A stretch of DNA of 64,000 nucleotides from Heterobasidion occidentale (Eukaryota > Basidiomycota > Agaricomycetes > Russulales > Bondarzewiaceae), in contig JBCAQO010000004.1 in the NCBI GenBank assembly GCA_039111635.1, forward strand, positions 2,914,001-2,978,000. Reading direction: 5' to 3'. The position numbers were made by a program, and so were the translations under genes. Numbering within the stretch: the stretch's first letter is position 1; each line of letters begins with the position of its first letter. Of this stretch, positions 43,713-60,499 are shown piece by piece. The notes beneath the pieces were generated by a model. It worked only from the letters and a program-made list of their open reading frames with translations. It ran no database searches and was not told the DNA's origin.

Positions 43713-44141
43713 GTGGGACATCTGAACCCCTCACAAACGAGTTCTTATGTGTTTGATTGGTCTTCGTCTAGACTGACCTGCTCATATACTTTTCTAGTGA
43801 TTGATACCTTGGAGCTTCACATCCACTCACTAGCGTTCAACAAAGAGTGTGCCGCGTACTCCAACAGGATTAGCAATGTCCCCTTATCCAATGATAGCGA
43901 TATAGACTACTCCTCTGACCATAGCAGTCTCTGGGAGAATGACTCCTCATCCTTCAGTGTTTCTTCTGTCGAGTCCTCTCCCCATGAGGTCCCCAAGCTC
44001 GAGGCCTACCTTTATTATTTTGGTCTCCGGGGTCCCAGACGCCGGGGTCCCAAGTTGATCTTTCAGACGTCCAAGGATGTCTTCACAGCACCCTCGGGGC
44101 CAGAGCAAGAACTTTGTCACATGCAGCTTCGGCCAGTCTAC
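43713..44141 (+). pseudogene. Truncated hypothetical gene, cut by an LTR
   Basis: A plus-strand frame encoding an acidic Ser-rich segment (DSDIDYSSDHSSLWENDSSS, then SVSSVESSPHEVPKLEAYLY) followed by GPKLIFQTSKDVFTAPSGPE and LCHMQLRPVY, where the LTR starts at 44142. The 'TSKDVFTAPSGPE' block resembles a motif I loosely recall from repetitive uncharacterised basidiomycete proteins, but I cannot name a family. No start codon is convincing. It is best seen as the 5' part of a gene destroyed by retrotransposon insertion. Confidence 0.4.
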
Positions 44142-44965
44142 TGTTACGAACTGCTCGTTCGGTAACCCAAGAGTAACAGGTTCTTCCCTAGGTCGCACGA
44201 TGGACTGAGTGGTGGACGAAGTCTCGACTGTATCGGGCAACGATACAGGAGGGAATAATGATTGACTCTAAGTTACACAGTGTGGTGACTGCGTAAGAAC
44301 AAAGAGAATAGACTGAAGATCCTCAGCCTATTCTATGGGCCTTATATACTGTATGGGGTATAGGGTAAGAGTCCGTGTGCTTCCCCGGGTTTCCATCCCA
44401 GGAGAGCTGTGGTCGCCGTCTCTCTCAGCCGGTGCCTACTCTTGTACTTCTCCAGTCGCACTGATCCATCATGGTGTGACGAGGTGCTTACCCATAAGCC
44501 CTAAGCCTATGGCATGTGAATGCCTCTCTTATTACTGTGTGAACTCTGTGAGCCTCGTGTCCCTCTCATATAGCCTCTACTGATGTCTTGAAGAACCATC
44601 AGTCTTGTCGGCTCCTAAGGACATGCCAAATACCTTGATGTACGCTCCGTAGTGGAGCCACCTAGCATGTGATGCTTGAACCATCGGTTAGACATGGCCC
44701 CGAAGGGCCCCGATCGGTCAAGTCATAACATTACCCCCTTTCTAGGTCCCAACTCCTGAGGGGACTACTCGCCCTTGCGAGCTTCATCGTCATTCCACGT
44801 ACAATTGCTTCCTGGTTGTCCAAACAGATTGGGATGCGTCCTCCTAATATGACTTTGTTTTCTGGGGCGAAGACCGACCTATGTCGTTTACAACGCCTAG
44901 GAGTTTTCCTTCTCCGTTGAGCTGTTTGATTTGAGGTTTTACAATATCGCCACAATACCGCTGAT
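44142..44965 (-). mobile_element. Truncated 3' end of an element-B relative (LTR plus 3' noncoding)
   Basis: An LTR of the B family (44142-44730, TGTTACG ... CATAACA), shorter than in element B because of a deletion near its middle. It is followed by the PPT-like TTACCCCC and about 230 bp matching element B at 50298-50530. Similarity stops near CACAATACC (about 44965). This is a decayed, 5'-truncated copy in the same orientation as B. Confidence 0.75.
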
Positions 44966-49013: not shown

Positions 49014-49682
49014 GCCAATCCTCGGTTGGTCTGCTTTTGTAGCTCCTGGTATGCTTGAGTCCGCCAATTAGAGTTGTCCGATCGCTTCTGCTGCAGCTTT
49101 GATCGAGACGAATCTATATTGGGCTTCTTTGGCTGCGCTTCTCGATCGTTGATCGCCGGTGGTGGCACTTTTGATCGAGGAACCAGGGGCGGCCTCTTTA
49201 GCTGCGTCATTCGTTTGTTGATCTCTTCCATGATCTGGGGGATAGCTAATCCTGTAGCGAGAAGCTTCTTTCCGATCGGATGCTTCTCGAGCTTCTTTCT
49301 GATTTGATCTTCTTCGGCTACTCTGTTGAGTTCTAATTCGATTACCAGGGCCAGAATGGAGGCTTCCATTCCTTTGACTGCCCGAGGGTGCCGGCGGTAG
49401 AAGTCCTTTATGGCTTCTTGTGCGTTAGTGACGTTTGCCGCGGCTTCCCAAGAGTTGTCCGATTCCGGGTAGCCCTTCCATTTGATCAGGTACTGCAAGA
49501 TCTTCCATCTTCCGAAGCGTTGAGCTCCGACAATAGCTTCGACTTCGAATTCTTCTTGCCCTTCGATCAGGTCCGGAGCCGGTTTAGGGTAGTTCGGGCC
49601 ATAGACTTCGTTTTCCTTGTAGGGCGTGAGTCGACTAGCATGGAAGACGTCGTGAATGCGCTTCCAGCTATTGGGCAGTTTC
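48992..49682 (-). CDS. Element C integrase tail and chromodomain (3' part of pol)
   Basis: Continuation of the element C polyprotein left of the element B insertion. Sense reads LPNSWKRIHDVFHASRLTPY, the usual integrase 'HxVFHxSxL' block, then FEVEAIVGAQRFGRWKILQ and the chromodomain core YLIKWKGYPESDNSWEAA with the aromatic-cage Trp residues. Chromodomains direct chromovirus integration to marked chromatin. A charged tail of about 120 residues follows (EEDQIRKKLEKHPIGKKLL ... SRSKLQQKRSDN), longer than in element B. It is separated from its 5' part by 10.8 kb of element B. Confidence 0.85.
49678..49682. repeat. Target-site duplication of element B (left)
   Basis: GTTTC immediately outside the 3' LTR; identical to 60495-60499. 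Confidence 0.92.
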
Positions 49683-50297
49683 TGTTACGAACTGCTCGTT
49701 CAGTAACCCAAGAGTAACAGGTTCTTCCCTAGGTCGCACAATGGACTGAGTGGTGGACGAAGTCTCGACTGTATCAGGCGATGATACAGGAGGGAATAAT
49801 GATTGGCTCTAAGAATCCTGTAGGTACAGGGAGACGAAGAGCTTCGTATTCGAAGATACGAAAGAACGAAAGAGAATAGACTGAAGATCCTCAGCCTATT
49901 CTATGGGCCTTATATACTGTATAGGGTATAGGGTAAGAGTCCGTGTGCTTCTCCAGGTTTCCATCCTAGGAGAGCTATGGCCGCCGTCTTTCTCATCGGC
50001 GCCTACTCTTGTACTTCTCCAGTCGCACTGATCCATCATGGTGCGACGAGGTGCTTACCCATAAGCCCTACGCCCATGGCATGTGAACACGCCTCTTCAT
50101 TACTTGTGTGAACTCTATGAGCCTCATGTCCCTCTCATATAGCCTTTACCGATGTCTTGAAGAACCATCGGTATTGTCGGCTCCTAAGGACATGCCGAAT
50201 ACCTTGGTGTACGCTCCGTAGTGGAGCCGCCTAGCATGTGATGCTTGATCCATCGGTTAGACCGGCCGCGAAGGGCCCGATCGGTCAAGTCATAACA
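49683..50297 (-). repeat. 3' LTR of element B
   Basis: TGTTACG ... CATAACA on the plus strand, 615 bp. Compared with the 5' LTR: GTGGTGG/GTGTGG, AAAGAACG/AAAGACACG, ACTTGTG/ACTGTG, GCCGAAT/GCCAAAT and GGGCCCGA/GGGCCCCGA. Confidence 0.95.
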
Positions 50298-50312
50298 TTA
50301 CCCCTTTCTAGG
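50298..50312 (-). other. Polypurine tract of element B
   Basis: Sense AGAAAGGGGTAA immediately before the 3' LTR; the same tract is kept in the truncated copy at 44731. Confidence 0.75.
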
Positions 50313-51117
50313 TCCCAACTCCTGAGGGGACTACTCGCTTGAGCAGCAGCGAGCTTCATCGTCATTCCACATACAATTGCTTGCTGGTCGTCAAATAGAT
50401 TGGGATGCGTCTTCCCAATATCGCTTCGTTTTCTGGGGCGAAGACCGACCTACGTCGTTTACAACGCCTAGGAGTTTTTCCTTCTCCGTTGAGCTGTTTG
50501 ATTTGAAGTTCGGGGCATAGCCACAATACCCTGTCTCTTCTCCGGTGTTCTTCCTTCACCGCACGTTTTGTGTGAGTACACTCCTAGAGTCAATAGGCAG
50601 CTACTCGACCAGGCTCCCTGGTAGGTTTGATGAGCCAGTGTCATCTGGCGACGATGCAGAAAGGTGTTGTGCGAATGACTATAGGATGAAAATAGAAACT
50701 CGTCTGTGGATGGGTGTGTGTCGTTCTTCTTTAAAGTGCCGAAGGCCATGTCTCAGTGTTTCCAGGATAGATCTTCATCTCCGTGATCTCCGGTATCGAG
50801 GGGGACTCCAGGTGTGTGGGTTGATCGCTTTACTAAGGCTTAGGCCCACCAACCTATCAAGAGCGAACATTTCTCTTGACTTGTTTTGAGTCCGGCAAGA
50901 CCCTTTTGAAGATCCCTAACTCTGTCAGCCCCATACGGTGGCCTTGTCAGGTTAGAGATTGAGTGTTCGTCCAGAGTTTGTTTTTCACTAAGGGTATTGG
51001 ACACGAGGTAAGGACTTGAAGAATAGATTTTGAACCCCATGGTCTCTTGAATATACCATGGTATCCACCTTGACGGTAATTATGTGGGGTCTGCGTAAGG
51101 TATGTCCTGGTATTTTA

Positions 51118-52755
51118 ACGTCGTGCCGGACGTCCGTAGTTTTGCGTCTTTGCGGACGTCGGCTAGTTTATCCTTAAGTCATTGCGGACTGAGGCTAGTT
51201 TATACAGAAGTCATTGCGGACTGCCCTGCTAGTTTATGCCAAGGTCGTTGCGGACCTATCCATCTTCCAACGTAGGAGTACCTGTAAACAAGATGGTAGA
51301 CCATTTCTGTGCGCCGGAACATTCATCGGTGATGCACATAGGGCCCTAGACCAAGTACAGCCATCTTGACAGGGTTCCCATTGAGGAAGGATGGTGACGG
51401 TTTATACTATATCAACCGGATAACTTATAGAGTTGCGAGAATAGACTTTAAGCCTATTTTGACACAACTCACATGGCCCTGTAGACAGAAGGGCAGCTCA
51501 GTTTATCGTCATGAAGGACGGCAACTAGTTTATAGTCATTGCGGACGTCCGCTATCGCCTGGCTTGAACCTCCCGAGCCTCGATAGATTTAATCCTCCGG
51601 GGTGAGGGTAGTTTAAGGTCATTTCGGACTAGTTAGGGGACAATGAACTTGTCCCATAACTACGTCTCCTATCGCTTGAAGGAGTAAGTAGTTTATCGTC
51701 ATTTGCGGACTAGACCAACATCGTGGTGTCAACAATGATGTCGATCGACATCTCCTATGCTGAAAGGAGTGGTAGTTTAACGTCTTTGCGGACGCAGCAA
51801 TGCCGAAACATATCTCATGTTTGGACACTGCTCATGGCCCTGTAAAGGAAAGGGCAATCCCAGTTTAACGCCATGGAGGGCGTCCGTAGTTTACTGTCAT
51901 TGCGGACAGTTGTAGTTTTACATCGTTGCGGATGATTAACCTGAGGCACGATCCCAGTTGCCTCTTGACTGGCCCTTGAAGCGGAATCCTTGCTTCGGAC
52001 TTCAAGGGTAGAATGGGCACGCCATGGAGTAGTCGTGGTCCTGTCGTCGGAAGACTGACAACCGCTCCACGTTCCCAAACCCCTCGCACGGAATTGAACC
52101 GTGTCGACCCCATATTCTTTTACTGTAGGGCGTATGGAATATGGAAGCGCCTCGACCTAGTCGGCAGGGTTCTGCAACGGTGGAGGTCCTCACTTCCACC
52201 GTCTGCCAGAATACAACCACGCTCCGAGGGTCTTGGTAGCTTTAGCGTCGTTCCGGACGGTAACTAGTTTATCGTCATTGCGGACCAAGCCTTTCGTAGT
52301 TTTACATCGTTGCGGATGTTTTTTTCCGTTTTGGGTTACTAATGGAGTGCGGCCATTAGTTCCTGCATCGCAGATAGGGTCCCCTAATGCGGAAACGACC
52401 CTGTAAAACCGGAGATCCAAAGTGGGACGTCCAAAACACCTGTCAGACCTTGACAGCGAGGTTGGTCCACCGTTCCCCAACGGCGAACATGCAACACGAT
52501 TTCCCACCAATATTCATGCATCATTCATGTACCAGTACCAAGGTTATGTTGTGAATCCTAAGGCCTCCTAATGCGGAAAGGGCCCTGTAAAACTGGGGAT
52601 CCAAGCGGGACGCCCGATTCGCTTGTCAGAATACCTCTTGACAACGAGAGTGTTAGATGCTTGTCCTTGTCTTGAGACCGGAGGCTGCAACGCAAAATGG
52701 TCAGGTACTTCCCCTGCCTTCTTATCTTTTCACAGTTTAACGTCATGCAGGACGT
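51118..52755 (-). repeat. Array of at least 17 covarying GNRA-type hairpins
   Basis: Plus-strand unit: (T/C)AGTTTA, 0-8 nt, stem half ending GTC, six-base loop, stem half starting GAC. Positions: 51118-51133, 51145-51158, 51177-51190, 51209-51222, 51242-51257, 51507-51520, 51535-51546, 51616-51630, 51697-51710, 51781-51794, 51868-51883, 51893-51910, 51921-51934, 52246-52259, 52274-52285, 52304-52319, 52740-52755. Stems differ but stay paired: ACTGTC/GACAGT, ACGCC/GGCGT, CATC/GATG, AGGTC/GACCT, AGTC/GACT, ACGTC/GACGT. On the element's sense strand the loop is CGCAAN, containing GCAA in most copies, GAAA in one and GGAA in one, all GNRA. This argues for selection on RNA structure in the element transcript. 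Confidence 0.75.
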
Positions 52756-52825
52756 TCGTTCCGGCGTCCTGTGCGTGAAACCGGTACCTGAGGTGCGGAG
52801 GGTCCTTTCCTCTCCGTCACCTTGT

Positions 52826-54205
52826 CTAATATCCTCCCCCAATGTCTCCGTAGTCTCCGTACCCTTCGTCTGGTCTGTAGTAGGGGTCGATGTCATCGTA
52901 ATTATCGCCTTCGACCTCGTCCCAGGCGTCTAGTTCCGCTCGAGTCCAGGAAGTAGTTCGCTGAGTCGGGCGCTGGCGGACTGGAGTTCTTCTACCAATG
53001 TGTGGATGCGCTCCTTCAACTCGATTATCTCGAGGACGGTTTGGAGTCGGCGGATCTCTTGGTCGAGTTCTTCTAGGACTGCTTCGCCTGGGTTGAAGGG
53101 TTGCCCTTGTTCTCTGGCTCCCCCGTCCTTCATTTCTCCTGTACCTTGGAGGGTGCTCCTCATTGCTGCCTCCTGCGTCCTGCCCGGTGGATTGTCCTGC
53201 CGATATGGGAGGAAGGGCCTCTCGGTCCCTTCGTGCCTGTCGTTGGACCGTAGCCCAGACGTATTCGGTCTGGGTGGATGCGTCTCGACTACTTGTAGCC
53301 GGTACCGCTCTGCTAGCTTCGCTCCATGGCTGGACGCGGAATGGGTCAATCCGAACGGGATGGACAGGATGGGAGGAGTGTCTTGTGTCGGTGCGCGAGA
53401 TGAGGGCGGGTAAGAGCTCCAGATTGATGAAGGAGGAGAACTCGTCCGGATGAATGAGTAGGGCGTAAGCCCCATTATTTCCTCGGGCGTACCAGGAGGC
53501 GGCCCTATGATCATCTGCATAGGCCAGAAGCCTGACCTGGTTGCTCGCGTCAGCGAGGCGTCGGGGTATGTCGTCGCTCTCGCTTCCTGGTTGCCCTGCG
53601 AAGAAGTTAGCGAGCCTTTGTAAGGCCAGCGCTGTGGCCATCTGAATTACCGCGGAGATGGTGGTGCGCTGGAGTAGAGCGTCTCCTAGCCCTTCCAACT
53701 CTCCGGGGTGCAGATCTCGACTACTGGTAGGGGGCCCTCTGGTCCGGGTAGCTGATGCACCAGCCGTTGCTGGTTCTTGTACACCTGCCTCAACAGTTGT
53801 AGGCGATGCCAGGTCCGAAGGGTTTCCTGGTCTTCTTCCGCCTCTCGTTTCCTGCCTTGCGTCTCCTTGAGCCAACGCTGTCGTCGGTCGCGGAGGCGTT
53901 GACGGAGCATGCCTTCCTTCTGCTTGACGTCCTTCATCGTGCTCGTCATGAGTTCTCTCAAACCGTGGTGAGGTTCCGGAATCCGTTCGATCTTCGGCGG
54001 CGAACGCGGTTTGGTGGACGATGATTGGTATGGGAATTCCTTCTGGAGTCGCTGGGCGGCTGCTTCGGCTAGGGCGTCCAGTGTCGGGGTTGGCCACGGC
54101 CAGAACGATGTCTGGCGAGGGGTTTCTTGAAGGGGAGGAGGTAGTTCCATCACTGATGAGCATGGCACGTCCAGGGGAGTAGTTCAAGGAGGAGTAGTCG
54201 GACAT
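52826..54205 (-). CDS. Element B extra ORF (ORF3), unknown function
   Basis: A 459-codon frame starts MSDYSSLNYSPGRAMLISDG 57 bp after pol and ends with an acidic Tyr/Asp/Gly tail (YYRPDEGYGDYGDIGGGY). Parts of the other two frames look more protein-like. The third frame, about 54060-53690, encodes a basic coiled segment (MKDVKQKEGMLRQRLRDRRQ, RWLKETQGRKREAEEDQETL). The frame 53400-52930 encodes VLEELDQEIRRLQTVLEII and LKERIHTLVEELQSASARL. The real product is therefore probably a coiled-coil protein of about 460 residues interrupted by several one-base frame breaks. The middle (RRLADASNQVRLLAYADDHR, LLIHPDEFSSFINLELLPAL) is in the annotated frame. No family recognised; no zinc knuckle or membrane segment. 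Confidence 0.5.
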   Translation of the reverse strand: MSDYSSLNYSPGRAMLISDGTTSSPSRNPSPDIVLAVANPDTGRPSRSSRPATPEGIPIPIIVHQTAFAAEDRTDSGTSPRFERTHDEHDEGRQAEGRHAPSTPPRPTTALAQGDARQETRGGRRPGNPSDLASPTTVEAGVQEPATAGASATRTRGPPTSSRDLHPGELEGLGDALLQRTTISAVIQMATALALQRLANFFAGQPGSESDDIPRRLADASNQVRLLAYADDHRAASWYARGNNGAYALLIHPDEFSSFINLELLPALISRTDTRHSSHPVHPVRIDPFRVQPWSEASRAVPATSSRDASTQTEYVWATVQRQARRDREALPPISAGQSTGQDAGGSNEEHPPRYRRNEGRGSQRTRATLQPRRSSPRRTRPRDPPTPNRPRDNRVEGAHPHIGRRTPVRQRPTQRTTSWTRAELDAWDEVEGDNYDDIDPYYRPDEGYGDYGDIGGGY

Positions 54206-54262
54206 GTACTGGGGAGGATTCTTGCTTTGAAAGAGGGAGGGTGTCTCCCTTTTTATATCTTT

Positions 54263-57200
54263 CTAAAGCCTAATCGCCGCTGGTCGGGGCTTGTCTGGGT
54301 AGCTTTCGTGGAATTCACGAAGCGCCTCGTCGGCCGTATCCTTGAGGAGGGCAAAGGGTTCCCAAGTGTTATCGGCCTCGGAGTATCCGACCCACTTGAC
54401 AAGGTACTTGGTTCCTCGTCCCTGACGTCTTGAATCTAGGATGGCCTCCACTTCGTAGTGTTCTTCTTCATTCAGGATCTCTGGGGCAGGTCTGGGGAAG
54501 TTCCTCCCGTGGGCCTCTGTCTCGTGATATTCCGTGAGTATGGAGGCATGAAACACCGGGTGTATCTTCCATGTTTCGGGTATTTCCAACCGATAAGCCA
54601 GAGGACCGATTCTTTCAATCACTGAAAAGGGGCCATAGCGTCTGGGTGCCAGCTTGAATTTCGGATGAGTCGTCCGAATATGGGTTCCTTCTAACCAAAC
54701 TTGGGTTCCTACTTCCCACTGCGGAAGTTTCCTGTGTAGGTCCCGGTCCTTGGCGTGCTGCGCTGCCATTTGTAGACTTGCGGCCGCATCTTCTTGGACT
54801 TCTTTGATTAGCTGCAAACGTTCAGTTACTGCGGGCACCTTGGTTTCCAGAGCTGAGTCGACCGAATATGGTGGGTTGAACCCATAAAGGACTTCAAACG
54901 GCGACTTCCCAGTGGCGGAGTGCCTTCGGGTATTGTGGGAGAATTCTGCAAAGGGGATCAAGTCTACCCAGTTATCTTGATGGTAGTTGCAGAACACTCG
55001 CAGGAATTGCTCGATCTCTTGGTTTACCCGTTCTGTTTCTCCGTCCGTTTGGGGATGATAAGCCGTGCTGAGGGCAGGGGTAATTCCCATTCCTTTCCAT
55101 AGTTCCCTTGTGAACTTTGCCGCAAATTGAGGGCCTCTGTCGGACACCACTTTGGTTGGTAAACCGTATCGTTTGAACACATTGTTTTGGAAGAGCGTCG
55201 TGGTTTCTTCGGCCGTGATTGTCTTCTTGCACGGGGTTATGACTATTCCTTTTGATAAACCCTGATCGACTACCACGTTGATCGAGTCGTAGCCTCTGCT
55301 TTCTGGGAGATCTGTCACGAAGTCGGTGGAGATAAAGCGCCAAGGGACGTTTGTGGTTTCCAGCGGTTGGATCGGTGGATGGGTCCTATGGGGAAGGTTC
55401 TTGGTAGATTGGCAAACTGCACATCCATCCACATACGCGTGTACAAATTTGGTCATGCTTGACCACCAGTAATGGCGTTGGACCAATTCTAAGGTCTTTG
55501 CTCGGCCCGGGTGTCCTGTAGCCATAGTGTCGTGGTGCGTTTTGACAATCATTCGTCGAAGGAGGTCGTCCTTTGGGACGCATATGTAACCGTCGCGTCT
55601 TGTAATGCCCTCTTCATGTGTCCATTTTCCTAGGTCGCCCTTCATTGCGCTTGGGCCTTTTTCCAGCAGTTTCTTGAGGGCGATATCAACCAGCAAATCG
55701 TTTTCCGAGCGCGAGTGTCGAATAAGGGAGAGGATGTCCGAGGATACGAGTTCTGTTGCTTTGACGTGTATGCCTTCGCTTGGTTCTACTAGAGTTTCGC
55801 TGGACTCGGTGAAAAACCTGGACGGGAGTAGAGTCTGTGCCTTGTTATCAGATTCCACCCCCTCACTAAGGTCTGGACGCCTGGACAGAGCATCGGCATG
55901 ATTCGTAGTTCCAGCCTTGTAACTGAGCTGGAAGTCAAATCGGGACAAAAACAGACTCCAGCGTGCTTGTCGCCTTGACAGGTCGCGTGCCGTTTTAAAG
56001 TGTTCTAGGTTCTTATGGTCCGTCCAGACCTCAAAGGCATGTCGAGCGCCTTCGAGGTAGTGTTTCCAGTGCTCTAGCGCTTTGATGATGGCGAGAAGCT
56101 CGCGATCATGTACGTCGTAATTTCGTTCGGCCGGTGAGAACGATCCTGAGAGGTATGCAACAGGGTGCCAGTCGTTATCAGGTCCTTCCTGTAAGAGGAC
56201 TGCACCGTATGCCGCGAGGGAAGCGTCGGTAACAAGCCGGTAGGGACGCATCGGGTCAGGGTATAACAGGACGGGTTGACTGATGAAGGCTCTCTTCAGT
56301 CGATCGAACGCCTGTTGGCACTCCGTGGTCCAGTCCCATTTCATATCTTTCTTTGTGAGGTTATGCAGGGGCCGAGCGATCAAGGAGAATTTATCAATGA
56401 ATCGTCGGTAGAAGTTCCCTAAGCCTAAGAAAGAGCGGATGTCGCGAACTGTGCGTGGGATGGGCCATTCCTGGATAGCTTTAATTTTCGAGTCTTCCAT
56501 GGCGACGTGGTCTTTTGAGATCGTGTACCCAAGGTAGTTCAGCTTCTCCTTGTGGAACTCGCACTTCTCCGGTTTGAGGTAAAGATCGTTGTCGCGCAGG
56601 ATTTGGAGGACTCGCTGAAGAATCACAATGTGTTCCGCTGTGGTCTTCGTGAAGATGAGGATGTCGTCCATATATACCGCTATTTTCCGGGCCAGGATGA
56701 GTTCTTGGAAGATCATGTTCATCATGGCTTGGAAGGTTCCCGGGGAATTGCAGAGTCCAAAGAACATCACCGTAGGTTCGAAAAGTCCCAAGGGTGTGAC
56801 GAAGGCCGCCTTGGACTCGTCTCCTTTCTTGATACGTACGTTGTTATATCCCCACCGAACATCGAGCTTCGAGAACACCGTTGCGCCTTTAATAATATCC
56901 AATAGTTCTTGGATTAATGGCAGGGGGGTGACGTCTCGAATGGTGTGTTCGTTAAGGTGGCGATAGTCTTGTACCGGACGGAGCTTCCCATCTTCTTGCT
57001 TACAAAAAAGAAAGAGGCCGCGCTATGTGCTGTTGACCGACGTATTGTTCCTCTGGAAAGGTGCTCTTTGACGAACTTCCCTAACTCGTCATGTTTTTCC
57101 GGGCTCAGAGGAAATATCCGCGGGGCCTGGGGTACAAAAGACGGTTTGAGGTTTATCGCGTGGTCCCATATTGTATGTTGGGGGAGCCTCTGCGATCGTC

Positions 57201-58197
57201 GTTCGCTGAAGATGTCGAGGTAAGAATGATATTCTGTCGGCACCCGACCCTTCAAGTCGGTGGTGTCGATTTCTTCCTCCAGGTCTTCGTCAAAGCTTGC
57301 GAACCCCGAGGGTTCTGGAGCTACCTTCCTAATGACGGGTTCTCCTGCGCTATCCATTGCGGAGGAGTCAAACGGTGTTCGTGTTTCTTCAGCGACTTTT
57401 CCTGAAGCTTCGCCCTGGGCTGCCTCTTGTTGGGCTTGCCGGCGTTCCTTCCTTTCGGCTACTTGTTCTTCGAGCCACTCCCGAGCCTTGCGTTGTCGGG
57501 ATTTATGCTCGAGTAACTCCATGAACCGAGTTTTCCATTCCTTCGCGGGTACTTGGCTCCACTGTTCTTTAGTCCAAGTCCACGAAGGTCCTACCGGTTC
57601 TGAGACAAGATGCGGTTTCGTCCGCTGGGGAACCTTGTCACCGCGTAGTTTCGCTAGCCATACCTTCTTGGTAGGCTCTTCCCTTGCCTTGGTAAACCCA
57701 TATGGTTGTTGGCAATCTCTGGGGCATCGATCAAAGTGTACCTCACGGCGCCTCCACCCGATGGAGGGGTCGTGGTATTTCAACCAATCTGTTCCTAGGA
57801 GCATGTCGTCTTTCCCTAGATTGGTGATGAACATCTGGACGCGTTCAGTGTGAGTTCTCCCTCGTCTATCCCTGACGGTGAGATTCGCGTCTAGGCCTCG
57901 TCGAATGAGGCCTGCTTTGTTGATGGTGTCATCGACGTTGCGAACGCGGATGGGGCGGTTTAGAGGATAGGTGGGGAGGTTGTGCTTCCGTACCCATTCT
58001 TCGTTTACCAAAATCCCTTCGCATGCTGAGTCGATGGCGGCTCTGGCTCCAGCGCTTCTTCCTCGAGTTGTTAATCGCACGTCAAGTCGAATGGGGGTAA
58101 TAATGTGACTGTTCATTGCTCCGATTCGAATATATGACGGGGAATCATACTCGAGTTTCTTCGACCCTCTCTCTTCGGCTGGTGAAGGAGAGGTCAA
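54263..58197 (-). CDS. Element B pol: protease, RT, RNase H, integrase, chromodomain
   Basis: Two frames joined by a one-base break near 56992 (AAGAAGATGGG for AAGAAAGATGGG). The first (58197-56914) has the aspartic protease motif AAIDSACEGILVNEEWV and LLGTDWLKYHDPSIGW, then the RT start. The second (56902-54263) has RT with AVYMDDILIF (YxDD). RNase H has VTDASLAAYGAVL and the closing NHADALSRRPDL. The integrase HHCC finger (HHDTMATGHPGRAKTLELVQ ... CAVCQSTK) precedes a DDE core (FISTDFVTDLPESRGYDSIN, VVSDRGPQFAAKF, PQTDGETERVNQEIEQF). The tail has GPFSVIERIGPLAYRLEI, then the chromodomain YLVKWVGYSEADNTWEPF. All catalytic residues are present, so apart from the single break the enzyme set looks functional. 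Confidence 0.93.
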
Positions 58198-59700
58198 GAA
58201 AAATCCTCTGCCAGGTCCACCAACATCTGCCTTTGCTCGGCCTTTCCTACTCCTTGGAAGAGCGCTCGGACGCCATTAAATATCACTGATGAGTCCGTTG
58301 CTTCGAAGTCCGTTAGGCGGTACGTAGCGCTCTCCATCGCTCTGGCGTGATCCTCTCCTTCTCGCGGGAGGGTCCTCACGTTCCACCGAATTACCAGGTT
58401 GTGGTACCCGACGGTGGTGGCCATGAGAACTCCCCTCCTCCAATCCTCGATGTAGTCGCGCATCGTTTCCCACCGGGGATTCTTGCTCGTCTTTCATCCT
58501 CCAGGTTCTGCAGCGCGAGTTCGTCTACCTCCTCCACCCATCGGCTTGCGCGGATTTCCTCGAGACGGGGGAACGCCTCTACGAGGAGAACGACAGTCAG
58601 CTATCCCATGCCCTGGTCTTCCGCAATTGTAGCAGGAAAAGGGAGCAGGTCTCTTGCCATCGTATACACGCTTGTTCCGATTGGCGTCTCTTTTGCGAGA
58701 GGCATCAATATCCATGTCAACCACCGTTGTTCATTCTGCAGGGGCGTGGTAGAGTTGTAACGACGAGCAGGTTGGAGGTGAAAGCGATTGAGGAAGTCGC
58801 TTCGGAATGAGGTGGAGTTGGCGAGGATCGCCTTTTGAGCATTTCGGGCTCTTAGGCGTCCATCTATTTCGCAGGCAGTATTGACCCAATCTTGGATCGT
58901 GTCCTTCGGCGGAGTTTCCTTGTCATAGATCTTGTCCATGACCCTTGGATCAAGCCCTCTTTGGAAGTAAGGAACTTGTTCCTTATCGGTGATGTCGGCG
59001 TCGGCGGCGATAAGGATGAATTGGTTTGAATATTCATCCACCGTCATTTTTCCCTGAGAGAAGGACATAAGGGCACTTCGGGCCTTGTCCGTAAGGTTTG
59101 TTTCCTTGAACTGGAGTTTAAACCTGTCATGGAAGTCGTCCCAAGTCCCTACGGTTTTGGGCGGAGTCGCCCCTACTGTCCTCTTCAGGAAACTTTCTGC
59201 CCAGATGCCGGCTGTTCCATATCTCATACATGAGAGAGCGAGGGAAACTTTGTCTGAATCCGTCTTGTATCGGTCTGGTTCTGCTGTAAAAAGGAGGAGG
59301 CAATTCATGATGAATTTTTGTGATTGTGTTCGGTCTCCCTCGAAGTTGTCAGGGAGTTTGAGCTTGCCCCTTCCCGACGAGACGGGGGGGTCTGTAGGAT
59401 TTGTCGACATAATGTTTCGGGTGTTGATCGGTGTTTGAATATCCGAGGGCTCGGACTCGGATGTTCCTTCTTCTTCTTCCGATGTGTCCGGGATTTCCGG
59501 TTCGGGGTTCCTGTACTGGGGTGGCGCTACCCAGTCTCCTGCTATTTCGTCCCAAGCCCACTCAGCTTCTGTTTCGTCTTCTCTTGTGAAGAAGTATCGT
59601 CCTTCTCGGTACGAGCAGTTATCAAAGTTCGGGGGTGCTGGTTGATTGGTGTCGGAGTAATACCAGCGGTTTTCCCTTTGATGGATAGGACGATTGTTCT
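58194..59700 (-). CDS. Element B gag with zinc knuckle (frame-broken)
   Basis: The annotated Met at 59410 (MSTNPTDPPVSSGRGKLKLP) is preceded in the same frame by an acidic stretch (PEPEIPDTSEEEEGTSESEP) open to about 59700, so Gag starts further upstream. The capsid core is recognisable: TVGTWDDFHDRFKLQFKETN, LMSFSQGKMTVDEYSNQFIL. After about 58725 the frame slips (one G missing) to CYNCGRPGHGIADC, a CCHC knuckle. It slips again to a coil (RLEEIRASRWVEEVDELALQ) and, near 58475, to TMRDYIEDWRRGVLMATTVG, running into the protease frame at 58194. A Gag-Pol frame change may be natural at one of these points, but the first looks like a lost base in a G run. Confidence 0.75.
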
Positions 59701-59867
59701 GTCGAAGTTGGTCGTGGGTTCGTCTAGTGCCTGGTGAAATCCTAGGCCTAGGTCTTGCTCCAGGGTGTGTGAAGTAACTCTCTTCGGTGGGGGTCTATGC
59801 CACCGATGAGGGTTGTGAGGAAGAGTGTGGCAGCAAGCAGAGTGTGGTGCAAGGTAGGGCAAAAGCG

Positions 59868-59877
59868 AGTCTATTCT
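59868..59877 (-). other. Primer-binding site of element B, probable self-priming
   Basis: Two bases inside the 5' LTR the sense strand reads AGAATAGACT. Its exact complement, AGTCTATTCT, lies inside the LTR (60070-60079) about 34 nt downstream of the TATA box, where transcription would start. A transcript 5' end folding back on the primer site is the self-priming mechanism described for Tf1/sushi-type elements. No tRNA 3'-end complement (TGG...) is present. Confidence 0.6.
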
Positions 59878-59879
59878 AG

Positions 59880-60494
59880 TGTTACGAACTGCTCGTTCAG
59901 TAACCCAAGAGTAACAGGTTCTTCCCTAGGTCGCACAATGGACTGAGTGTGGACGAAGTCTCGACTGTATCAGGCGATGATACAGGAGGGAATAATGATT
60001 GGCTCTAAGAATCCTGTAGGTACAGGGAGACGAAGAGCTTCGTATTCGAAGATACGAAAGACACGAAAGAGAATAGACTGAAGATCCTCAGCCTATTCTA
60101 TGGGCCTTATATACTGTATAGGGTATAGGGTAAGAGTCCGTGTGCTTCTCCAGGTTTCCATCCTAGGAGAGCTATGGCCGCCGTCTTTCTCATCGGCGCC
60201 TACTCTTGTACTTCTCCAGTCGCACTGATCCATCATGGTGCGACGAGGTGCTTACCCATAAGCCCTACGCCCATGGCATGTGAACACGCCTCTTCATTAC
60301 TGTGTGAACTCTATGAGCCTCATGTCCCTCTCATATAGCCTTTACCGATGTCTTGAAGAACCATCGGTATTGTCGGCTCCTAAGGACATGCCAAATACCT
60401 TGGTGTACGCTCCGTAGTGGAGCCGCCTAGCATGTGATGCTTGATCCATCGGTTAGACCGGCCGCGAAGGGCCCCGATCGGTCAAGTCATAACA
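59880..60494 (-). repeat. 5' LTR of element B
   Basis: 615 bp, TGTTATG ... CGTAACA in the sense direction. Contains TATATAAGG (60105-60113 complement), a downstream hairpin-forming GAATAGGCTGAGG/CTTCAGTCTATTC segment, and about 200 nt of R-U5. Confidence 0.95.
60105..60113 (-). promoter_or_regulatory. TATA box in the element B LTR
   Basis: Sense TATATAAGG in AGTATATAAGGCCC; the same box is in the 3' LTR and in the truncated copy (44336-44344 region). Confidence 0.65.
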
Positions 60495-60499
60495 GTTTC
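60495..60499. repeat. Target-site duplication of element B (right)
   Basis: GTTTC directly after CATAACA; identical to 49678-49682. Confidence 0.92.

Follow-up and report, generated by a model that had tools for sequence, protein, structure and literature searches.

A 17-unit array of coremin-like, predicted Xrn1-resistant RNA hairpins in the 3' noncoding region of a Ty3/gypsy LTR retrotransposon

Tandem Xrn1-resistant RNAs (xrRNAs) of flaviviruses are serial Xrn1 blocks in the 3' UTR, few units in number, that leave a noncoding 3' RNA (sfRNA). A different motif, the coremin xrRNA (xrRNA_C) of BNYVV RNA3 and its relatives, consists of a GUC/GAC hairpin (here hp1) with a YGAD or YGNNAD loop, a spacer of 8 to 10 bases with a conserved AAACUA, and a second hairpin (hp2) (PMC10520033; Dilweg, Peer and Olsthoorn 2023). 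According to the available text of that report, the C-U of the spacer is crucial, a small hp2 is enough, the loops CGCAAU, CGCGAA, and CGAAAU resist Xrn1 in vitro, and two heptaloops are active as well; its authors suggested that closing of the hexaloop into a GNRA tetraloop disturbs function. CGAAAC, the sole C-ending hexaloop tested in that text, failed in the BNYVV context, and two natural chrysovirus motifs have loops ending in C (PMC10520033). The same source places coremin-like motifs in fungal viruses of the dsRNA families Hypoviridae and Chrysoviridae and calls the coremin structure unsolved in 2023. In yeast, a motif turned antisense gave no protection, as far as the available part of that study goes (PMC5869530). 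The literature that we found on coremin and Xrn1 consisted of virus papers.

The array described here probably comprises 17 coremin-like RNA units, each predicted to stall Xrn1 and to leave protected 3' RNA. It resembles the hexaloop form of BNYVV RNA3 coremin in its GUC/GAC hairpin, the C-G-N-N-A-D type of loop in about half of its units, its spacer leading to AAACUA, the candidate small second hairpin in many units, its sense-strand orientation, and its 3' UTR position. It differs in that 17 units stand in series in an LTR retrotransposon, that about half of the loops lie beyond the tested consensus, that a second loop class, CUNCAU, occurs with a CUG spacer, and that three units have longer spacers. 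Flavivirus xrRNAs share the serial 3' UTR blocks but have a larger, ring-like pseudoknotted fold, and the hypovirus and chrysovirus motifs sit in RNA virus genomes, whereas this array sits in an integrated element. Rfam covariance models gave no match at E values up to 10 in 51050-52850, which leaves no match to a known Rfam family, including the flavivirus xrRNA if present there. The LOOT motif, with six helices in the part of its description available, is unlike these units, and no match was found that would derive the array from a known phage. The original prediction knew of no described LTR-element array like this, and likewise no xrRNA-type array in a retrotransposon or LTR element was found among the literature matches listed, preprints and most subscription journals being beyond reach. 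We turned up no report of serial coremin-type units in an LTR retrotransposon, and this arrangement may be new; the coremin motif in viruses was known already.

The array lies in the window, that is, the whole 64-kb stretch of Heterobasidion occidentale DNA analysed, within a minus-strand element with the following features.

49683..60494, minus strand: Ty3/gypsy (chromodomain) LTR retrotransposon, from LTRs, flanks, and domains
49683..50297, minus strand: 3' LTR, from LTR comparison
50301..50309, minus strand: polypurine tract (presumed), AGAAAGGGG on the sense strand, 3 bases from the 3' LTR, read directly
52826..54205, minus strand: ORF3, 459 aa, the last long ORF ahead of the array
59880..60494, minus strand: 5' LTR, from LTR comparison

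The 615-bp LTRs are 99.19% identical over 617 columns, and this near-identity suggests a recent insertion. A 5-bp target duplication, GTTTC, was read directly in the flanks at 49678-49682 and 60495-60499. Pfam searches identified Gag, RT, RNase H, integrase, and chromo domains. The LTRs, the target duplication, the polypurine tract, Gag, and the RT-RNase H-integrase-chromo order together mark the element as a Ty3/gypsy chromovirus; we take AGAAAGGGG to be the polypurine tract from its position and from general knowledge of LTR elements. In the 2.5 kb from the ORF3 stop (52826) to the polypurine tract no ORF reaches 150 aa, and the array sits in this 3' noncoding sequence. ORF3 is arginine-rich by appearance.

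As originally predicted, 17 paired units were seen in the 3' noncoding region of the minus-strand element. Their hairpins span 51120-52753, and all stem halves are able to pair. In sense order, with mismatches given for units recovered by the consensus search described below, the units are as follows.

52733..52753, minus strand: unit 1; hp1 52742-52753; loop CUGCAU; spacer ending UAAACUG; no clear hp2; 2 mismatches
52297..52317, minus strand: unit 2; hp1 52306-52317 (AUC/GAU); loop CGCAAC; no clear hp2
52265..52285, minus strand: unit 3; hp1 52274-52285; loop CGCAAU; next hp1 can act as hp2; exact consensus (0 mismatches)
52237..52258, minus strand: unit 4; hp1 52247-52258; loop CGGAAC; spacer ending AAAGCUA; no clear hp2
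51913..51933, minus strand: unit 5; hp1 51922-51933 (AUC/GAU); loop CGCAAC; next hp1 as hp2
51887..51907, minus strand: unit 6; hp1 51896-51907 (6 bp, ACUGUC/GACAGU); loop CGCAAU; next hp1 as hp2; exact consensus (0 mismatches)
51861..51881, minus strand: unit 7; hp1 51870-51881 (GCC/GGC); loop CUCCAU; spacer ending UAAACUG; own hp2 GCCCU/AGGGC
51773..51793, minus strand: unit 8; hp1 51782-51793; loop CGCAAA; own hp2 CUCCU/AGGAG; exact consensus (0 mismatches)
51689..51710, minus strand: unit 9; hp1 51698-51710; 7-base loop CGCAAAU; own hp2 CUCCU/AGGAG
51609..51629, minus strand: unit 10; hp1 51618-51629; loop CGAAAU; own hp2 CCUC/GAGG; exact consensus (0 mismatches)
51526..51546, minus strand: unit 11; hp1 51535-51546; loop CGCAAU; next hp1 as hp2; exact consensus (0 mismatches)
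51499..51519, minus strand: unit 12; hp1 51508-51519; loop CUUCAU; spacer ending UAAACUG; own hp2 GCCCU/AGGGC; 2 mismatches
51230..51255, minus strand: unit 13; hp1 51244-51255; loop CGCAAC; spacer 5 bases longer; no clear hp2
51196..51221, minus strand: unit 14; hp1 51210-51221; loop CGCAAU; longer spacer; next hp1 as hp2
51164..51189, minus strand: unit 15; hp1 51178-51189; loop CGCAAU; longer spacer; next hp1 as hp2
51137..51157, minus strand: unit 16; hp1 51146-51157; loop CGCAAA; next hp1 as hp2; 1 mismatch
51111..51131, minus strand: unit 17; hp1 51120-51131; loop CGGCAC; spacer AAAAUA; no clear hp2; 2 mismatches

On the sense strand, a unit has a stem of 3 to 6 bp, a six-base loop, a spacer mostly ending in AAACUA, and then often a small hairpin. 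The stem core is GUC/GAC in 14 of the 17 units (one with the 7-base loop), AUC/GAU in two, and GCC/GGC in one. The kept loop feature is six bases with C first and A fifth (next to last). The claim that a GNRA pattern is kept had to be given up, as only 12/17 loops carry a GCAA, GAAA, or GGAA word, the others being three CUNCAU, one CGGCAC, and one of 7 bases; an array of GNRA tetraloops was rejected because the six-base loops and the three CUNCAU loops break that pattern. The AGTTTA reported beside each copy does adjoin nearly all of them and is, on the sense strand, part of the spacer UAAACU. Spacers carry AAACUA in 12/17 units, AAACUG in three, AAAGCUA in one, and AAAAUA in one, and three of the 17 are 5 bases longer, beyond the 8-to-10-base range of coremin. 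In most other copies of the element, the unit 9 position has the 6-base loop CGCAAU and the unit 17 spacer position has AAACUA. Eight of the 17 loops are hexaloops that fit the tested coremin consensus and one is a heptaloop that fits its extended form; five loops end in C and three have U at loop base 2 (U2), so that 8/17 lie outside it. Across 70 copies, the strict YGNNAD loop occurs in 435 of 1026 units. Xrn1 stalling can be inferred from the published assays solely for units that fit the tested consensus.

A candidate hp2 follows in 12/17 units: five have a hairpin of their own, and in seven the hp1 of the following unit could take this role. The other five showed no clear hp2. An hp2 score of at least 8 was found after 44% of 412 spacers, compared with 21% of random places in the array and 13% of shuffled sequences; among the window units, the hp2 listing covered units 1 to 8 and 10 to 16. 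In other copies, both arms of the unit 8 hp2 have changed. The middle pair at unit 7 is C-G in 29 and U-A in 13 of 42 distinct copies, and unpaired in none. Stems of 3 to 4 bp are weak, and alignment folding of single units often missed hp1.

The stem halves covary, as had been claimed. The covariation set comprised 16 of the 17 window units, with the 7-base-loop unit omitted. In this set, 95.3% of the stem cells were paired (0/500 shuffles as high), three of the four stem pairs had changes on both sides (5/500 shuffles as high), and the covariation score was 0.350, against a shuffled mean of 0.138 (0/500 as high) and at most 0.127 for slid versions. The 16 units did not stand out in how many pair types they contain (170/500 shuffles). 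The fourth stem pair, which played no part in unit selection, was Watson-Crick in 62% of 360 distinct units versus 40% in shuffled sets (maximum, 46%). A comparison of G-U with A-C (25 versus 41) gave the sense strand no preference. In the six most diverged copies, identity was 0.95 in the spacer, 0.86 in hp1, and 0.82 in the rest. The mean of hp1 and spacer exceeded the rest in 69/69 copies, although some of the diverged copies had hp1 by itself less conserved than the rest, and gaps were more frequent in motif columns (6%) than elsewhere (3%). A circular-shift conservation test, whose mask had three unit positions off by 1 to 2 bases, was modest (51/1655 shifts as high).

The unit consensus GTCYGNNADGACNNTAAACTA matched nine times at up to three mismatches in the 64 kb (five exact) with 0.38 expected, and all nine matches fall within the array, in sense orientation; nowhere else in the window was one found. 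Stem, hexaloop consensus, and spacer are all without mismatch in the five exact units. Genome-wide, exact consensus matches numbered 545 + 544 = 1,089, compared with 0 + 0 for a reversed-pattern control. Removal of the truncated L062 and of 12 duplicate sequences from 83 fetched copies (L001-L083) left 70 distinct copies, whose blast pieces were 77 to 97% identical. A hairpin-plus-AAAC scan of these 70 gave 13.8 units per copy, compared with 0.09 in reversed and 0.43 in Markov-shuffled sequence. A unit-like place with loop TGATAT, one per copy (66/1092 matches), was by eye a plain CGGTT/AACCG hairpin and was dropped. The number of hairpins, which was to be compared between copies, ranged from 8 to 19 units and varies through tandem gain; copy L026, for instance, has a run of four similar units. 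Most of the 70 copies were fetched by array or motif similarity, and their arrays are therefore present by construction, which makes a check based on pol the fairer one. Array evidence was found in 22/24 pol-found copies (contigs C1-C6; 24 of 52 listed pol copies). Here, pol copies were paired with array or motif matches by eye via coordinates, and 21/24 agreed, some on a single motif match; the remaining three had 10 units in 1 kb, another repeat, and an LTR at the array place, respectively. A diverged relative (L158) has a run of unit-like repeats, mostly decayed-looking.

Changes in the loop and in the spacer were coupled. Among 1026 array units, U2 loops had the spacer CUG in 177 cases and CUA in 5, and of the loops with G at base 2 (G2), 741 had CUA, 57 the AAAG form, and just 2 CUG; these counts ignore kinship between copies, and the U2 units stem from three unit positions. 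Viral contigs gave 64 CGCAAY+CUA, 1 CGCAAY+CUG, 0 CUNCAU+CUA, and 6 CUNCAU+CUG matches (Fisher, 4.9e-8), where more than one loop base distinguishes the patterns compared and the phages are related (59 phage contexts form 24 flank clusters). One of the six CUNCAU+CUG matches is antisense within a 706-aa ORF. The linked changes at loop base 2 and at the final base of the spacer may reflect a loop-spacer contact. A weaker trend was seen for C-ending loops, which occur in 70/586 units with the standard spacer versus 296/403 in the three main other spacer classes.

The unit GTCCGCAAYGACNNTAAACTA was found in 64 stretches of viral contigs (66 sites; L084-L147), with about 3 expected by chance on a rough estimate, and stem-broken and spacer-reversed controls gave 0 matches each, which pointed to a shared RNA motif. 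By their flanks, the viral hexaloop units are mostly intergenic, some directly following tRNA-like ends or preceding a start codon (e.g., L097, L104, and L143), and similar stretches were seen in a Lactobacillus phage and in Synechococcus phages. The placement of one phage match within a tRNA gene did not hold up. Nine viral stretches carry the tetraloop form of coremin together with the spacer (L148-L156), each after a T-rich, terminator-like stretch. Hosts of such phages possess the 5'-3' nuclease RNase J. In prokaryote genomes, the consensus occurred in at least 116 stretches (L167-L282); since about 90 chance matches are expected on a rough estimate, the count alone is no evidence, and the evidence lies in the loop bias (CGAAAU in 49/118, CGCAAU in 17, and CGUAAU in 16 of the matches listed) and in the recurrence of the motif within single genomes, with several copies in Arthrospira PCC 9108 and several in onion yellows phytoplasma. 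Unlike in the array, hp2 enrichment was absent in the prokaryote matches listed (8% versus 11% at random places). Tentatively, and with somewhat more doubt than confidence, we propose that coremin modules may be a general roadblock to 5'-to-3' exonucleases: phages and bacteria would deploy them against RNase J and RNA viruses against Xrn1, and an LTR retrotransposon would have stacked them 17-fold. The swap between G2-CUA and U2-CUG would then mark a tertiary contact that builds the block.

The wide sharing of the motif bears on an alternative in which the array would serve Gag or the ORF3 protein as a binding platform in packaging, dimerisation, or nuclear export, with loop and spacer as protein contacts. 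The serial hairpins adjoin ORF3, which has no Pfam match and whose second codon positions are the least variable (29 copies), and packaging of Ty1 and Ty3 relies on host factors according to the partial text available. However, phage contigs, prokaryote genomes, and RNA viruses carry this hairpin-spacer motif as well, and because it is shared so widely, a Gag- or ORF3-specific site is disfavoured; we consider this explanation unlikely. Still less probable is that the main role of the units is to stop ribosomes or to shape translation, and not to act on an exonuclease: coremin motifs slow scanning ribosomes in vitro (PMC10520033, available text), but the units sit past the element's last ORF of at least 150 aa, where cap-dependent scanning is not expected. 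A DNA-level inverted-repeat binding site spread by tandem duplication without RNA function would account for the tandem expansion and for GTC-N6-GAC being an inverted repeat, but is very improbable given stems that change on both sides, an asymmetric spacer on the sense side, and the failure of the broken and reversed patterns in viral contigs against 64 intact matches.

Under the preferred reading as coremin-like roadblocks, the 5'-to-3' exoribonuclease Xrn1 would stall just before each unit's hairpin, and decay of the element RNA would leave protected 3' fragments, so that transcripts would likely be shielded. Units in series could form a tight block and, by a further step of inference, yield a ladder of 3' RNAs of up to about 1.4 to 3.1 kb with the polypurine tract and LTR. 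If single blocks are partly leaky, the leak would drop steeply in series, which may explain the unit number. A likely benefit would be rescue of the 3' part of decapped or cut RNA, and a second likely one would be occupying Xrn1. The genome of the element has two XRN-family loci (XRN_N) and several Piwi-domain loci. In yeast, Xrn1 is among the P-body factors at or near which foci of Ty3 RNA are located, and Ty3 retrotransposition drops when xrn1 is deleted, according to the part of that report available (PMC7175516). A transcript that meets Xrn1 at particle-forming sites could profit from blocks ahead of its 3' end. The proposal of a structured RNA element in the transposon transcript stands with a different motif type, since hairpin, loop, and 3' spacer match the coremin xrRNA. 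Among the roles suggested for it (Gag recognition, export, or protection from RNAi), protection comes nearest, with a 5'-3' exonuclease as the probable target and not RNAi as such. If this holds, genomic parasites too would fight or exploit 5'-3' decay, for which xrRNAs have so far been described as tools of RNA viruses, and whether Ty3-type elements use or resist Xrn1 becomes testable. The roughly 1000 units, with two loop classes and coupled loop and spacer changes, are natural material for working out the coremin fold.

The window also encodes a 1,3-beta-glucan synthase with FKS1 domains, in keeping with a fungus, and holds, at 44124-44938, a second stretch with 88% similarity to the LTR of the element and the internal sequence next to it.
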